Positions 29,940 through 36,072 of a DNA stretch of 38,407 nt are shown here, piece after piece. Made by a program: the position numbers and the translations under genes. Origin of the DNA: Opitutia bacterium (GTDB taxonomy: Bacteria; Verrucomicrobiota; Kiritimatiellia; CAIQIC01; Lenti-01); assembly GCA_009928955.1 (NCBI GenBank), contig SABN01000022.1:1-38407 (forward strand), read 5' to 3'. How positions within the stretch are numbered: position 1 is the first letter of the stretch; each line of letters begins with the position of its first letter. A model generated the notes under the pieces. That model saw only the letters and a list, made by a program, of their open reading frames with translations. It searched no databases and had not been told where the DNA came from.

Positions 29940-30070
29940 TCATGGCAGGGTCCTGGCGGGGCGAAAGCCCAGGTAGCTGCTCCGAACGTCCGGGGCGGTG
30001 CCGCTGCGACTCGCGGAACGGCAGACCCCCGCGATGCCGCGCCAACCCCCGCCCCGCCCCACGCGGTCCA
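29940..30070 (-). pseudogene. Relic of an FGE-sulfatase C-terminus, VR-like
   Basis: The frame ending at TGA 29940-29942 reads VDRVGRGGGWRGIAGVCRS and then on to YLGFRPARTLP. It aligns residue for residue with the DGR template product (RGGSW...A..CR...R....PD......GFR). Variable positions in the known VR are also different here, but so are some adenine-free positions, so it does not derive directly from the TR at 31106-31237. The upstream part of the FGE domain (GNVWEWC...) is absent and group II intron DNA begins 100 bp away. It is either the remnant of a second DGR target or of an ordinary FGE-fold gene. Confidence 0.6.
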
Positions 30071-30122
30071 CGCCCGAAACCGCCCCTGCTCCGGAGGCCC
30101 AATCGTTTTTGAAACCCCTTCC

Positions 30123-30147
30123 GGCCGGCGTGGAAGCCGGCCCTCCA
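30123..30147 (-). repeat. Co-varying hairpin repeat H1
   Basis: Arm GGCCGGC, loop GTGGAA, arm GCCGGCC, flank CTCCA. It is in reverse orientation relative to H2 (30870-30889), which lies across the intron; without the intron the two would be about 27 bp apart. Confidence 0.8.
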
Positions 30148-30173
30148 CAAATCCGTTCCGCATTCCGCTCTTG

Positions 30174-30866
30174 ATCGGATGGGGGCACGGGGGATTTCAC
30201 CCCGTGCCCCTTCCACACCACCGGACATGCGGTTTTCCGCATCCGGCGGTTGAACTGGGCCTCCACCCTCACGGGCTTCTGCAAAACAATGGCACGGTAC
30301 ACGTATTTCGCTCCTGCCATTCTTTTCATTGAACAGGTCACCCGACTTCTCGCGGCGGGGATTTGGGAAACTACAAGCGGCCTTGCGAATGAATCCACAT
30401 TCGCGCCACCACCTGCCTTCAGGCTTTGCCCGGTCGGGCATGGTCCTTCGGTTTCAGTTCCCTGTAGGTCTTTCCCCACAACGGAGGTCGGTCTGTTTTC
30501 TCCAGTTCTTCGGCCCTTCGCTCCTGCCGCCTTTCGACGGCTCTCTTCACTACTACGGCCTCTGCTGACTCCTCCGCCGCTCTCGCGCCGGAGGTCTCCC
30601 CAGGTAAGGTGCATGAACTTTCGGCCCGCGCCGCCAGGCTCTACCCGATCTGGCTTTCGGTAACGGTTGGATTTCGCGTTCCCTAGCACGCTCATCGCCC
30701 AGATCGAGCCTCGCTGCCTGTTCGTGTTCCTGCGGTCGGACCTTCGCTACGGACTTCTTTCAGCTCGCTCCCTCGCGGGCGCGGCCTTGTCTTTCGCTAC
30801 GGTTGCTGTCACTGCTCTCCGGTCTTCTCCTTTCAGATGACAAGTTCATGCCCATGCTGGGCACAC
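30174..30866 (-). mobile_element. ORF-less group IIC intron
   Basis: Read on the minus strand, it starts GTGTGCCCAGCATGGGC, the classical group II 5' end. It contains GGAGTCAGCAGAGGCCGTAG (30553-30572), a block conserved in group IIC introns such as that of Oceanobacillus iheyensis. A 34-nt domain V (30217-30250) is followed by a strong domain VI-like stem (GGGGCACGGGG/CCCCGTGCCCC), and it ends ...CCGAT. At 693 nt it has no room for a reverse transcriptase, and none is present. The 5' exon is a hairpin (H2), as usual for class C. GAGGG at 30770-30774 can pair as EBS1 with the last exon bases CCCTC. Removing 30174-30866 restores TGGAGGGACGGG, the hairpin-repeat consensus, which fixes both ends. 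Confidence 0.85.
30217..30250 (-). ncRNA. Group II intron domain V
   Basis: This 34-nt hairpin has a 9-bp lower stem (ACCGCCGGA/TCCGGTGGT, one G-T pair), a 2-nt bulge on the 3' side, a 5-bp upper stem (TGCGG/CCGCA) and an AAAA loop. The CGC catalytic triad follows the first base of the core, as in group IIC. Confidence 0.82.
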
Positions 30867-30869
30867 GAG

Positions 30870-30889
30870 GGACGGGTTCCACCCCGTCC
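30870..30889 (+). repeat. Co-varying hairpin repeat H2 (5' exon of the intron)
   Basis: Arm GGACGGG, loop TTCCAC, arm CCCGTCC. The TGGAGGG flank seen in other copies is split by the intron: GAGGG is at 30867-30871 and the missing TG is at 30172-30173. Confidence 0.82.
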
Positions 30890-31105
30890 GAATTTCCGAT
30901 CCCCATCTCCGCCCACCTCGCATGGATTCCACTTCCAGCCCATTCCGCCCTGTCCACGTGCAGTGAAACAAGCCCCGCCGGAGCCTTCGCCGGACCATCC
31001 AGTCCGTCTACCAACCCCGGCGGGGCGTTGCCTTTTCGTCCCGCTTGGAGGCGGGAACGGGATTTCATCCGGGTCGGCAAGCCGCCCTCCGGCAGACTTG
31101 GCGAG

Positions 31106-31237
31106 CTGGGGGCAGGACAGCCCGGAAGCCGTTGTTGTTGTTGGCGTTGTCCGGGTTGTCGTTGTTGCGGTTGCCCACCCGGCAGTTGTTGGCGTTGTTG
31201 TTCCAACTGCCGCCGCGATCCACGCGGTTGGAGCCCT
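31106..31237 (-). repeat. DGR template repeat (TR)
   Basis: 132 nt, read on the minus strand, 54 nt after the reverse transcriptase stop. It aligns without gaps to the VR at 33135-33266. All of the roughly 25 mismatches fall on adenines of this strand. In the target frame it would read RGGSWNNNANNCRVGNR and onward, with AAC codons at nearly every variable site, the codon type favoured in DGR templates because A-changes there never make a stop. It has no start codon of its own and serves as RNA template. Its 3' end shares CTTCCGGGCTGTCCTGCCCC with the VR. Confidence 0.97.
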
Positions 31238-31290
31238 GTGGATGAAACCCCAAATCCCGAATGCCCGGCACGTCGTTCATCGGCGTGGTT

Positions 31291-32295
31291 TCAAGATGCG
31301 CGGCTGGTCTGCGCCACGACTTGACGCCGGAAGCCGGCCGAATCCGCAAAGCGGACGTACGAAAGCAGCGCCTCCGCATGCCGGGCCAGATCGGATTCCG
31401 ACCAACGGCCGGTTTCGAATTCCTGCTCGAACCCCGCCAAACGCCGACCAAACCGGCGGCGGGCACGTGGCCCCAAATCAAGCCTGTGCGCAAATATCCG
31501 GTATCCCAGAAAGGGCAACCCCCGCGCACTGCGGTTGAGCTGGACGTCGTCCTTGAGCCGGAGTTGAAGACGGGACTCCAAAAAGGCCGTAATTGCCGAC
31601 AAATGACCTTTCAACGAATGCTTGTCGGATGCCCAGAGGACGAAATCGTCCATGTACCGGACATACCCCGCCACCCGCAGCGTCTCCTTGACGAAATGGT
31701 CGAGATGCCCCAGATAGAAATTCGCCAGATGCTGGGAGATCAGGTTGCCGATGGGCAGCCCTTTGCCGGGGGCCATCTCGTAGCTTGAGAGAATCCGGCC
31801 AAGGAGCGCCAGCAAATCGGCATCCTTGAACCGGCGGGCCAGAAGGTCAAGCACCGTGGCATGGCCGATCGAATCGAAGTATTTGCGGATATCCAGCTTG
31901 AGATACCAAGGATGGCGGCGCGCGAAGGATTGCGCCCGCAAGACAGCCTCGTGCAGGCCCTTGCCCTTGCGGCAGGCATACGAATCGTGGATGGCAAACC
32001 GCTCCAACGCCGGCTCGCATACGTTCATGACGGCATGGTGCAGCACGCGCTCCGGAAACGCCGCCGCGCAAATCGTCCGTTCCTTGGGGTCGTGCACGGT
32101 AAAGAAGTGGTAGCGTCCCACGTTTACGGCGCGGGCACAAAGCTGATCGCGCAGCCGGCGCAAGTTCTCGTCCAGCCGGACCGCGTATTCGATCACTTCC
32201 TTCTTCCCGCGTTTCCCTCGGGCCGCTTTCAGATAGGCCAGCCGCAGGTTTTCGGGCTCGGCGATCCGGTCGTAGAGACCACCCGCCCGTTTCAT
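31291..32295 (-). CDS. DGR reverse transcriptase
   Basis: 334 residues, the usual length for DGR enzymes. Motif order: YHFFTVHDPKERTICAAAFP (RT2), WYLKLDIRKYFDSIGH (RT3, first catalytic Asp), GLPIGNLISQHLANFYL (RT4, with the DGR-specific 'SQ' in place of the group II 'PQG'), YVRYMDDFVLW (RT5, YMDD catalytic pair at 214-217) and LPFLGYRIF (RT7). No maturase or endonuclease domain is present. It copies the TR RNA with errors at adenines and the cDNA replaces the VR. The start overlaps the HRDC gene stop (ATGA, 32292-32295), so both are co-translated. Confidence 0.96.
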   Translation of the reverse strand: MKRAGGLYDRIAEPENLRLAYLKAARGKRGKKEVIEYAVRLDENLRRLRDQLCARAVNVGRYHFFTVHDPKERTICAAAFPERVLHHAVMNVCEPALERFAIHDSYACRKGKGLHEAVLRAQSFARRHPWYLKLDIRKYFDSIGHATVLDLLARRFKDADLLALLGRILSSYEMAPGKGLPIGNLISQHLANFYLGHLDHFVKETLRVAGYVRYMDDFVLWASDKHSLKGHLSAITAFLESRLQLRLKDDVQLNRSARGLPFLGYRIFAHRLDLGPRARRRFGRRLAGFEQEFETGRWSESDLARHAEALLSYVRFADSAGFRRQVVAQTSRAS

Positions 32296-32849
32296 TTTTC
32301 CGCCCGGTTTTCCGGAACGGCCGACGCGGAGGTCGGCCCTCCATTCCCGCCCTCTGGAGGGACGGGTTCCACCCCGTCCGGCTGTGGGGTTCCGGTCAAC
32401 GCCACGACCGCCAGCACCGCCGCGCCGTATTTGCCGGCCTTGGCGTCGCCGAGGCCTTCGATCTCCTTCAGGCCCGCCAGGCTCTCCGGGCGCTTCGCGG
32501 CGATGCCCGCCAACTGCTCGTTCGTCAGCACCGCATAGACTGGTATGCCCTCTTGTTCGGCCGTTGCCTTGCGCCAATCGCGCAGGCGGGCGAACAAGGC
32601 GAAATCCCCGGGCGAGAGCACCTCCTTGTAGTCCACGCGCGGCTTGCCGCCGCGCCCCTCGCCCGGACCCGGACCGGACGGAGCCGGTCCCTCCAGAAAT
32701 TCCACTGCCAGCGCCCAGTACGAGTTCTCCCCGTTCGCCACGAATTCCCGGTGCGCCGTCAGCACCCGGTGCGACCGCAGAAAACGGTTCAGATCCTCCT
32801 GCAGGCCCGCGTCGCCGCGGGCGGGTATGGCGTAAAAGCTCAGTTGCAT
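32292..32849 (-). CDS. HRDC-domain DGR accessory protein
   Basis: 185 residues. The N-terminal 60 residues (MQLSFYAIPARGDAGLQEDL, then HREFVANGENSYWALAVEFL) are found in similar DGR-linked proteins. An HRDC nucleic-acid-binding domain spans about 85-155 (FALFARLRDWRKATAEQEGI, then AKRPESLAGLKEIEGLGDAK). HRDC proteins are known partners in DGR cassettes where the Avd protein is missing, and no avd-like gene is visible here. The last 30 residues (PQPDGVEPVPPEGGNGG...) are encoded by an inserted pair of hairpin repeats (32319-32379), so the native C-terminus has probably been replaced. The start at 32849 is chosen by domain fit. Confidence 0.85.
   Translation of the reverse strand: MQLSFYAIPARGDAGLQEDLNRFLRSHRVLTAHREFVANGENSYWALAVEFLEGPAPSGPGPGEGRGGKPRVDYKEVLSPGDFALFARLRDWRKATAEQEGIPVYAVLTNEQLAGIAAKRPESLAGLKEIEGLGDAKAGKYGAAVLAVVALTGTPQPDGVEPVPPEGGNGGPTSASAVPENRAEK
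32319..32379. repeat. Co-varying hairpin pair H3/H4
   Basis: H3: GGCCGAC-GCGGAG-GTCGGCC then CTCCA (32319-32343). H4: TGGAGGG flank and GGACGGG-TTCCAC-CCCGTCC (32355-32379). The facing CCCTCCA and TGGAGGG flanks are themselves complementary. The pair lies within the 3' end of the HRDC reading frame. Confidence 0.85.
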
Positions 32850-32877
32850 GGGCCGCTTGCAAAACGAAGGCCAAAAT

Positions 32878-32958
32878 GGTCGGGGTGGAACCCGCCCCTC
32901 CATAAAACCGCCCAAACGGCCTGTTTTCGCCTCTGGAGGGACGACTTCCACGTCGTCC
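32878..32958. repeat. Co-varying hairpin pair H5/H6
   Basis: H5: GGTCGGG-GTGGAA-CCCGCCC then CTCCA (32878-32902, one mismatch in the stem). H6: TGGAGGG flank and GGACGAC-TTCCAC-GTCGTCC (32934-32958). H6 differs from H2, H4 and H7 in both stem arms at once, so pairing is kept. The pair lies between the target gene and the HRDC gene. Confidence 0.85.
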
Positions 32959-33052
32959 GGGGCCGTTTTGCAAGAGGCTTGCATGTTTCACCATTTGCCG
33001 GGTGCAAGCCCCCGGACCCCCGGATTGAAAATTCCCATTTTCTTGCCTCGTC

Positions 33053-33108
33053 CTCGGTTGGCCTCTCGCTCCGCTCGGTCCCGCTCCGCGAGACGCGGCG
33101 CAACCGAG
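33053..33108 (-). repeat. Nested inverted repeat downstream of the VR
   Basis: The outer stem is CTCGGTTG (33053-33060) with CAACCGAG (33101-33108), and the inner stem is TCTCGC (33064-33069) with GCGAGA (33088-33093). It begins 16 nt after the target-gene stop codon. DNA hairpins or cruciforms just beyond the VR promote homing in characterised DGRs, so this is a candidate for that signal. It could equally serve as the terminator of the target gene. Confidence 0.6.
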
Positions 33109-33123
33109 TACGCTGGCTTGTGC

Positions 33124-35913
33124 TCACGGCCGACCTGGGGGCAGGACAGCCCGGAAGCCGCGGAAGTAGTAGGCGTAGTCCGGGGAGCCGGAGCCGCGGG
33201 AGCCCACCCGGCAGCGGTAGGCGTAGTAGTGCCAACTGCCGCCGCGAGCCACGCGGGAGGAGCCCTCATATCCCGGGTACCAATCGAAACACCACTCCCA
33301 CACGTTGCCCGCCATGTCGTGCAGCCCATAGCCATTCGCCGCAAACGAACCCACGGGCGAGGTGTAAGGATATATTCCATCGTTGTATGTCGGGTGATAG
33401 CCCCGCGTCGGGCTCGTGTCGTAGTCGTATGAACTGGAACTGTAGTAATTCGCCCGCGCATGCTGGATCGTGTCTGAATCGCTCCACGGGAAACGGCGGC
33501 CGGTGGCGCCGCCTCGAGCCGCGTATTCCCACTCCACGTCCGTTGGCAATCGGTACCCGGCGGCGGAGGTCTGGACGACGTCGTTGCTCTGTCCGCCCTT
33601 GTACACGGCCCCGTTGACCGTATAGACCGGTTGCCGCCCCTCCTTCTGGCTGCGGGCGTTGCACCACTTCGCCACGTCCCACCAGTTCACCGTGTGCACC
33701 GGGTGGTTCGCCGCCTTGCCGCTCCCCGCGTTATCAAAGCTGTAGCCGTTGGCAATGGCCCACGTGTACACCTCGTCCCACAGCGCCTTCGTCACCTCGT
33801 ACTTGTCCATGTAAAACGAGTTCACGGTCAGGCTGTACGCCCCATAGTCCGGGTCCGTCCCCGCATTCGTCCCGCCGGGGATCAGGACCATGCCGGCGGG
33901 CGGGGCGGAGGTTGAGCCGCCGCCGGTGACCGTGACCGTGCAGGAGGTCTGCACGCTGCCGACATCGTTGTAAGCCCTGACCGCATAGGTCCCGGCATGG
34001 CCGGCACTGGCCTGCCGGATGGCATATTCGGGCTGGGTGGCGCCGACAATGCGCGTACCGTTGAAATACCACCGATATTGAGGATCCGGAATGCCCGAGG
34101 CCCAACCGGATAGGGTCACGGAGCCGCCAATTGGCACGGTGCGGTTGGGGAAAGTGCCCGAAAAAACGGGAGCGGAGGAGGGGTCCGGATAGTTGGTGCT
34201 CCACAGCGGCCAGCGCTCGTCGTATAGGGTCCATTCGGGCTTTTCTCCCCAGTTGTCGCCCCATACCCGGCTCTCGATGCCCAAGGTGGAGGACAGGCCG
34301 AAATAGAGCGCCCAGTCGTATTGGAGGGGGTTCAACTGGAACGAGCCTTCCAGTTCGGTGTAGGGCACCACGTCGGCCCACAGGCCGGCCAGGCTGTAGG
34401 CCAGCACCGTCAGCTTGGGCTGCACGTAGACCTTGGCGTGGGCGTTCCCTTCCAGTTGCCACGTGATGGGTTCGGCCTCCAGCACGATGTCCGGATTCCG
34501 AAAGCCGTGGGTCCATTGGTTCTGCCGCAACTGCACGGTGAACTCCAGCTCCTTGCCCATGTCCACCACGGTGTGGGCGTTGCCGGCCACGCTGGCGTCG
34601 TATTCATAGCCCGCGTGGAGTTCCACGACGACTTCGATCCAGACCGGCACCGGCCCGATCATCCCGCCGAACACCTTGCTGATGGGCTGGATCAGGGGAA
34701 ATTCGTCGCCACCCTCGACGGCGGCATAGAAAAGCGCCTCGGGCTTGATGTGGATGGTCAATTCGCTGCGGGCGGAGGCGTCGAAGGATTCCAGCCCACC
34801 CCAGCCGATGGCCGCCGCCACGTCTACGTCGGCCGTCAGCAGCCAGCTGCACTCCGGCAGCCACAGCTTCAGGTTGGGATGCTCATAGAGGATGGTTCCG
34901 CCCAGGTCGTCGCCGAATTCGGCGTGCAGCAGGTTGGCCTCCACGCCCACGCCGCGCACCGACAGCCCTGGATCGGCCGGCTGGAAATCCACGGCGGCAA
35001 AAGACCCGGCCGTCAGCAGATTGGTCAGCGAGATGTCCTCCGTCCAGGCCGTGATGCGCAGCAATCCGGCATCCACCGCGTTCGAGACGACTGCGCGATA
35101 GAAGGGATAGGCGGCATCGAAACTAACCAGCCGGGTCCCGTTGCTGATCGCGGGCGGCGCGCCTTCGTAGGAAAACACCACCGCGTTGGAGGTCACGTCC
35201 ACGATCTGCAGGGCGGGCGAACCATCCTTGGGCTTCACGTTGGGCAGCGTGCGCAGGCGTCCGCTGGCTGTCCGCTTGCTGCCGGCAGGGGCCGTCAGGG
35301 CCAGGAACTCGCCTGCCGTTTCCGGGGTGCGTTCCAGCTCGAACGTCCACGTGTAGTTGCTTAAGGCATGTCCCAGGGTGTCGGCGATGGCCAGGGAGTT
35401 GCTGATCGTGGCGCCCGGCGCTCCCAGCGCCGCCGGCGGCGTGAAGATTACGGTGTTGTTTGTCCAGGCGAGATACGGACTGGCATGTCCCATGTTGGTC
35501 CAGCCTGCAATGGAAAGCGTCAACGACTGGGTGTCGATGCCTGCGGCATCCTCCAACGTGATATAGACCGCAGCATTCGTCGCCACCGCGACGGCATTGG
35601 AGGCCGGCACCAGCGCCGAGACTTCGGGCGGTTCCAAGTCCGGCCGGGCGATGCGGTAGAATTGCTTGCCCGCACCGGTCGTCACCGTGTTGGAGGCCAG
35701 CACGTTGGAGAACGATACCCCGGCCGGCGTGAGATTCGTCCAACTGGGCGTCACCAGATCGGGCGTGGCCATGACCTGATAGGTTTTCTCCGGCACCGCC
35801 TCCCAGTCCAGCCGGACCGAACCGGGCCCGGCCGGTTCGATTTCCACCGCCCCGCCCCATGCTCCAGCCGCAAGCCCCAGAACCAATCCCGCCAAGCCCA
35901 ATGTTTTGATCAC
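33124..35913 (-). CDS. DGR target: secreted protein with Ig-like and FGE-sulfatase domains
   Basis: 929 residues from a GTG start with GGAGAA six nt upstream. An N-terminal signal peptide (IKTLGLAGLVLGLAAGAWG) is followed by a 'VPEKTYQVMATPDL' strand module, a large beta-rich region (about 90-600), and an Ig-like domain at about 605-685 (YRWYFNGTRIVGATQPEYAI, then AGTYAVRAYNDVGS). The C-terminal FGE-sulfatase (C-type-lectin-fold) domain runs from about 690 (MVLIPGGTNAG, YEVTKALWDEV, YRLPTDVEWEYAARGG, MAGNVWEWCFDWYPGY). The VR encodes residues about 883-927, on the ligand-binding face of this fold. It is probably an exported, surface-exposed binding protein whose tip is diversified. TTGCCA (35974-35979) and CATAAA (35950-35955) may form its promoter. 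Confidence 0.95.
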   Translation of the reverse strand: MIKTLGLAGLVLGLAAGAWGGAVEIEPAGPGSVRLDWEAVPEKTYQVMATPDLVTPSWTNLTPAGVSFSNVLASNTVTTGAGKQFYRIARPDLEPPEVSALVPASNAVAVATNAAVYITLEDAAGIDTQSLTLSIAGWTNMGHASPYLAWTNNTVIFTPPAALGAPGATISNSLAIADTLGHALSNYTWTFELERTPETAGEFLALTAPAGSKRTASGRLRTLPNVKPKDGSPALQIVDVTSNAVVFSYEGAPPAISNGTRLVSFDAAYPFYRAVVSNAVDAGLLRITAWTEDISLTNLLTAGSFAAVDFQPADPGLSVRGVGVEANLLHAEFGDDLGGTILYEHPNLKLWLPECSWLLTADVDVAAAIGWGGLESFDASARSELTIHIKPEALFYAAVEGGDEFPLIQPISKVFGGMIGPVPVWIEVVVELHAGYEYDASVAGNAHTVVDMGKELEFTVQLRQNQWTHGFRNPDIVLEAEPITWQLEGNAHAKVYVQPKLTVLAYSLAGLWADVVPYTELEGSFQLNPLQYDWALYFGLSSTLGIESRVWGDNWGEKPEWTLYDERWPLWSTNYPDPSSAPVFSGTFPNRTVPIGGSVTLSGWASGIPDPQYRWYFNGTRIVGATQPEYAIRQASAGHAGTYAVRAYNDVGSVQTSCTVTVTGGGSTSAPPAGMVLIPGGTNAGTDPDYGAYSLTVNSFYMDKYEVTKALWDEVYTWAIANGYSFDNAGSGKAANHPVHTVNWWDVAKWCNARSQKEGRQPVYTVNGAVYKGGQSNDVVQTSAAGYRLPTDVEWEYAARGGATGRRFPWSDSDTIQHARANYYSSSSYDYDTSPTRGYHPTYNDGIYPYTSPVGSFAANGYGLHDMAGNVWEWCFDWYPGYEGSSRVARGGSWHYYAYRCRVGSRGSGSPDYAYYFRGFRAVLPPGRP
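33135..33266 (-). repeat. DGR variable repeat (VR)
   Basis: 132 nt at the 3' end of the target gene. Compared with the TR, about 25 bases differ, and all are adenines of the TR coding strand changed to T, C or G. Bases that are not adenine in the TR are unchanged. Typical codon changes are AAC to TAC, TCC, GGC, CGC, TTC or CAC. The shared region ends on one side at GAGCCCT (plus strand) and on the other at CTGGGGGCAGG, eleven bases before the stop. Confidence 0.97.
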
Positions 35914-36002
35914 GTTCTTCTCCCGGATGGAATATCAAATGCAATGCTATTTATGAGCTCTCATCCGCCCGCCTGGCAAGCCCGGAATGGCTTTCTGCGG
36001 CC

Positions 36003-36072
36003 TGGAGGGACGGGTTCCACCCCGTCCGGATTTCCGGTCCCGATCCCGGCCCGCGTGGAAGCGGGCCCTCCA
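36003..36072. repeat. Co-varying hairpin pair H7/H8
   Basis: H7: TGGAGGG flank and GGACGGG-TTCCAC-CCCGTCC (36003-36027). H8: GGCCCGC-GTGGAA-GCGGGCC then CTCCA (36048-36072). This pair has the outward orientation, opposite to H3/H4 and H5/H6. It lies about 100 bp upstream of the DGR target gene. Confidence 0.85.

Follow-up and report, generated by a model that had tools for sequence, protein, structure and literature searches.

Positions 30174..30866 of the minus strand in the analysed stretch of contig SABN01000022.1 (38,407 nucleotides, hereafter the window) are nearly certainly an ORF-less group IIC intron of 693 nt. The preferred reading, held with a probability of about 0.82, is that this element is an ORF-deleted, trans-mobilised IIC intron that targets REP-like hairpins and is structurally complete. 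Movement in trans is an inference, and a likely one.

The assignment is founded on Rfam matches, on a homologue in a congeneric genome (G003) and on the predicted fold. The intron reads on the minus strand from its 5' end at 30866 to its 3' end at 30174, and intron nucleotide n corresponds to window position 30867-n. Three Rfam covariance models match it above their gathering scores: RF02001 at 30782-30609 (103.3 bits, E 3.2e-20), RF01998 at 30608-30513 (38 bits) and RF00029, the domain V/VI model, at 30251-30174 (41.7 bits). The termini, GUGUGCCCAGCAUGGG (GUGUG) at the 5' end and CCGAU at the 3' end, agree with the group II ends GUGYG...AY. The free fold of the intron alone has an energy of -298 kcal/mol versus -253 +/- 7.6 for shuffled sequences (z -5.8), and its six stems follow the order I to VI of the group II domains. 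Among the frames within or spanning 30174-30866 there is no Pfam match, and neither an RT nor a GIIM domain was found by Pfam inside the intron; class C members usually, but not obligatorily, carry an RT/maturase. The first-pass annotation had described a 693-nt group IIC intron without a maturase gene and had named a covariance-model search as its check; the search has now been run with the outcome given above, and the coordinates prove exact.

Domain I (nt 6-268, 30599..30861) is defined by the free fold and the RF02001 match, and is followed by the domain II stem (nt 269-300, 30567..30598), defined by the free fold and the RF01998 match. The conserved block GUCAGCAGAGGCC (nt 298-310, 30569-30557) adjoins domain III (nt 307-355, 30512..30560), which is delimited by Rfam and the fold. 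Domain IV (nt 359-615, 30252..30508) measures 257 nt, lacks an RT ORF and was compared with the introns L053, L094, L107, L133 and L134. Domain V (nt 617-650, 30217..30250; RF00029 and fold) has the 34-nt length and the CGC triad that mark group IIC. The domain VI stem, nt 652-691 in the fold, together with the 3' end CAUCCGAU, occupies 30174..30216; the candidate branch A is 30180, the seventh nucleotide from the 3' end, and is conserved in relatives. The signs from which the intron had been recognised, namely the 5' motif, the SAGCAGAG-type block, the 34-nt domain V with its CGC triad and the domain VI-like stem, are each present.

The intron lies between genes and interrupts a hairpin repeat. 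Its 5' exon (30867..30890, minus strand) is the hairpin GGACGGG-GTGGAA-CCCGTCC followed by CTC, so that IBS1 reads CCCTC; its 3' exon begins with CA, the final two bases of the interrupted repeat (30172..30173, TG on the plus strand), and IBS3 is C. A stem-loop followed by a short IBS1 upstream of the intron, here the hairpin and CTC|C, is a further mark of group IIC. When 30173 is joined to 30867 the result is TGGAGGGACGGGTTCCACCCCGTCCG, which is identical over 26 nt to two uninterrupted copies on the minus strand, at 32355..32380 and 36003..36028; the exact insertion into a hairpin repeat, proposed beforehand, is thereby borne out. Another uninterrupted hairpin, GGCCGGC-GTGGAA-GCCGGCC-CTCCA, lies on the plus strand at 30123..30147 and faces the interrupted one. 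The local family has a 7-bp stem, a 6-nt loop (mostly GTGGAA) and the tail CTCCA, and eight uninterrupted members are found at 30123-36072, mostly as facing or back-to-back pairs between the genes of a diversity-generating retroelement (DGR). The target is not a Rho-independent terminator: the hairpin is followed by CTCCA with no T-tract, and it recurs as a REP-like element. A search of the whole 3.4-Mb MAG with a stringent hairpin pattern found members on SABN01000022.1 only. In congeners hairpins occur at other loci with no linkage to RTs, and for this reason they look like REP-type elements. That they are parts of the DGR is unsupported, as G003 and G016, genomes without a DGR RT match, carry hairpins. 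A hairpin flush with CT[AC]| precedes the intron in 11 of the 14 introns with a readable 5' exon (the window copy included), against 8.5% of random windows.

The DGR itself occupies 31110-36000 on the minus strand. It comprises an FGE-sulfatase target gene that has Ig domains (33124-35913, with the VR at about 33124-33290), an HRDC-domain gene in the frame 32292-32984, an RT (RVT_1) at 31549-32085 and a TR at about 31110-31250; the differences between TR and VR1 fall mainly at adenines of the template. One hairpin (32671-32695) sits within the HRDC frame. Downstream of the intron, at 29950-30100 on the minus strand, there is a second, far more diverged VR-like FGE fragment (..DRVGRGGGW..GFRPAR), whose frames have no Pfam match. 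A related DGR locus, L191 (G009:C60:9000-16500), is found in another genus of the family; its RT region is 72% and its TR region 86% identical, and it has the same hairpin family and no intron. The similar uninterrupted hairpin near its TR was considered as an orthologous empty site and set aside, since the flanks align too poorly.

Recognition of the 5' exon can be assigned to the loop UAGGG at nt 182-186 (30681..30685, minus strand) on two grounds. Across 13 introns this loop covaries with the exon, relatives with UAG at EBS1 having a CTA exon and those with GAG having CTC, and 49 of 52 EBS1/IBS1 pairs are Watson-Crick compared with 39.1 in shuffles; none of 20000 shuffles equalled this number, which is no strict probability because the 13 sequences are related. 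The loop also coincides in place with A184-G187, the EBS1 of the Eubacterium rectale IIC intron in the solved structure (PMC10190682). In the window it pairs with the exon CCCU at -5 to -2 and leaves a mismatch at -1, U against C. This combination of UAG with CTC is the sole exception among the 13 introns compared, and as the nearest relatives have G at nt 182, the change probably occurred in the intron, as G to U, and not in the exon. It suggests that the window copy may now splice or re-mobilise worse than its relatives. The pairing proposed by the first-pass annotation, of an EBS1 GAGGG with IBS1 CCCTC, does not hold. That GAGGG (nt 93-97, 30770..30774, minus strand) forms the 3' arm of a hairpin capped by a GNRA loop, CCC-GCGA-GGG; nearly all relatives have GAGG here irrespective of their IBS1, and it shows no covariation. 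For EBS3-IBS3 covariation is uninformative, nearly every relative having C at IBS3.

An ORF-less relative is the 688-nt copy in G003, 80% identical to the window intron end to end and situated at an unrelated locus behind the hairpin GCGGCG-TCATGC-CGCCGC and ACTC|CAAA; ORF-less copies thus occupy different sites in the two genomes. The cores are 90% identical, domain IV is 68% identical over about 270 nt, and the branch is short (0.022). A search with a domain V pattern gave more than 100 loci among the matches listed, in Verrucomicrobiota, Acidobacteria, Methylococcaceae, Nitrosomonas and others; viral contigs gave none. Among the matches listed, the 5' end and domain V of full-length relatives lie about 1.8 kb apart, with a 1.4-kb RT ORF (a frame of up to 459 aa) in domain IV, where an RT is present in L053, L107 and L134; at least five short relatives have about 540-600 nt over the same interval and no RT. 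Full-length relatives that encode an RT, which the earlier annotation had suggested looking for, thus exist in other genomes, L053 for example, but the MAG itself yielded no second intron copy or intron end. L053, with a 459-aa RT frame, is 83% identical to the window intron over nt 1-363 and 94% over nt 612-693. The nearest ORF-containing relative, in Kiritimatiellae bacterium SV3-B9.1 (G016), is known from its two ends, which are 92-96% identical to the window copy, and was left out of the core tree; its 3' end encodes an RT C-terminus ahead of domain V. In the core tree the window and G003 copies cluster (95/96), and ORF-less and ORF-containing introns interleave, as in a Chthoniobacter pair (100/99) and a Methylobacter group. 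This interleaving indicates that the ORF was probably lost more than once in the family.

Comparison of domain IV indicates which part was lost. Among the matches listed, ORF-containing relatives have a structured non-coding stretch of about 170 nt, with the hairpin loop GUGGAUU, ahead of the RT start. The window copy retains the 5' part of domain IV that matches this pre-RT region, and the gene is gone. The retained part includes the hairpin GCGAAU-GUGGAUUC-AUUCGC (nt 463-482, 30385..30404, minus strand), which is conserved among relatives and, in the matches listed, is common to those with the ORF and to most without it. The GUGGAUU hairpin was tried as a special mark of an ORF-less lineage and rejected, because ORF-containing relatives have it and the two forms interleave in the tree. 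A remnant of the RT C-terminus in the window domain IV, where a frame ends SP* against EAPA* in G016, was judged suggestive and too weak. The solved IIC intron of E. rectale binds its maturase with high affinity at D4a, an arm of domain IV (PMC10190682), and the position of the 5' part retained in the window copy suggests that this part is the equivalent of D4a. Its retention would fit the use of a maturase made elsewhere, and a need of the window intron for a maturase in trans is plausible.

The supply of such a maturase was sought in the source MAG, which is about 90% complete. A GIIM domain was not found there (best E 2.6), which at this completeness is weak evidence of absence. It is further weakened by G016, where the ends of an ORF-containing intron are present yet the RT gene is likewise missing from the assembly. 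Two RTs were found in the MAG, both of DGR type. The one in the window has RVT_1 and no maturase domain by Pfam, as had been claimed for it. The other, L004 on contig C108 (G000:C108), stands beside HRDC-like and FGE-like frames, and as a DGR-type RT in which no GIIM was found it was rejected as the maturase. Other IIC-like introns do occur in the genus, one with a frame-broken maturase/RT (L025, G003:C11) and one with an intact 481-aa RT (L022, G006:C186). For the ORF-less introns of Methylobacter and Chthoniobacter a maturase-encoding relative is present in the same genome: Methylobacter marinus A45 holds L115 together with L094/L107, and Chthoniobacter flavus holds L113 together with L102. 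Both are good systems for tests of trans-mobilisation.

The history favoured here would begin with deletion of the RT/maturase gene from domain IV, the 5' part equivalent to D4a being retained. The intron RNA, presumed able to splice, would depend on a related ORF-containing intron for an RT acting in trans. By means of EBS1 and EBS3 the RNP would recognise the DNA stem-loop with its CTC|CA tail, the RNA would reverse-splice into the strand and then be copied by the RT, and the element would thus have reached its REP-like hairpin between genes in the way usual for IIC introns. Insertion predicts an empty site ...TGGAGGGACGGG / TGGAGGGACGGGTTCC in genomes of the same species without the intron, and splicing, if any, would give the junction CCCGTCCCTC^CAAGAGCGG.

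The most serious competitor, possible but the less probable account, is that the copy is a fossil, an old insertion made in trans which neither splices nor moves any longer, after drift in EBS1 (nt 182, from G to U) and loss of the maturase. The -1 mismatch, seen in no other of the 13 introns compared, speaks for it, as do the MAG in which no maturase gene was found and the intergenic position, where loss of splicing would be tolerated. Against decay, all the domains, the CGC triad, the domain III block, the 3' end and the candidate branch A are intact, the core has stayed close to that of G003 on its short branch, and four contiguous EBS1-IBS1 pairs (-2 to -5) still exist. That no maturase was found in the MAG would also suit a stand-alone ORF-less intron, like C.te.I1 of Clostridium tetani, which needs no protein for self-splicing and passes down with its locus. 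This is improbable, because the congeneric copy at an unrelated locus means that the element moved or was transferred, and absence from a 90%-complete MAG counts for little when the G016 gene is missing in the same way.

Two further explanations are far less credible. Multi-copy introns often break MAG contigs, and most of the relatives found, among the matches listed, sit at contig ends; an ordinary ORF-containing intron could then have been collapsed or misjoined across its RT gene. The G003 copy argues against such misassembly and largely refutes it, since an independent genome has the same ORF-less form with a homologous domain IV at another locus, behind a hairpin ending in CTC; in the window, moreover, domain IV folds as one continuous arm. 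It is just as hard to credit that the adjacent DGR RT services the intron, with co-transcription of the two. The intron does share the strand of the DGR, with about 240 nt separating it from the template repeat upstream, and no RTs other than those of DGR type were found in the MAG, but the RT lacks a maturase domain, and the only RT match of G003 is a broken group II maturase and not a DGR RT. We know of no case in which a DGR RT services a group II intron.

The reading as an ORF-deleted, trans-mobilised intron can be set against several known systems. Group IIC introns insert behind terminators and attC sites (PMC4424553). The IIC introns of E. rectale and Oceanobacillus iheyensis share with the window intron the six domains, the GUGUG 5' end, the 34-nt CGC-triad domain V, the DNA stem-loop upstream and a short IBS1, and that of E. 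rectale has EBS1 at the same place. The window intron differs from both in having no RT/maturase ORF. It also sits in a REP-like repeat whose tail is CTC|CA, whereas the known IIC targets are attC sites and terminators with a T-tract. Mobilisation of ORF-less introns in trans has been documented in Thermosynechococcus, where the TeI3 series of T. elongatus has, like the window intron, lost the ORF of domain IV and kept the maturase-binding subdomain DIVa (PMC2882425). That series spreads in trans (PMC2882425), as the window copy would, but it belongs to a different class and has many copies and resident driver maturases, whereas the window intron is a single copy and the MAG yielded no maturase. 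By the published account (PMC4424553), ORF-less introns are rare in bacteria and usually accompany a related IEP; the exception C.te.I1 resembles the window intron in that no IEP was found in its genome. Self-splicing has been shown for C.te.I1, whereas the window intron is known from its sequence, in an incomplete MAG. In Pseudomonas putida KT2440, REPs accompany 2 of the 9 group II introns (PMC1525189), and it is this association that they share with the window intron.

The window intron is a known kind of mobile element with no new mechanism, and each of its individual features has precedent; in the limited literature searched, no description of their combination in this lineage was found. 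Two species each have an RNA-only IIC form at a hairpin site of its own, single genomes of other phyla hold relatives both with and without the gene, and the part retained is the presumed maturase-binding arm. These natural variants lend themselves to asking what the minimal size of a IIC retroelement is, how widely one maturase can serve other introns and whether REP-like hairpins are safe landing sites in general. A wider and more doubtful proposal is that there exists a non-autonomous IIC lineage of Kiritimatiellae and their relatives on REP-like hairpins, which repeatedly lost its ORF, kept a D4a-like platform and persists without a cognate maturase by means of distant or transient maturases. 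If true, it would be a SINE-like parasite of group II introns, for which repeated hairpins would be safe havens.
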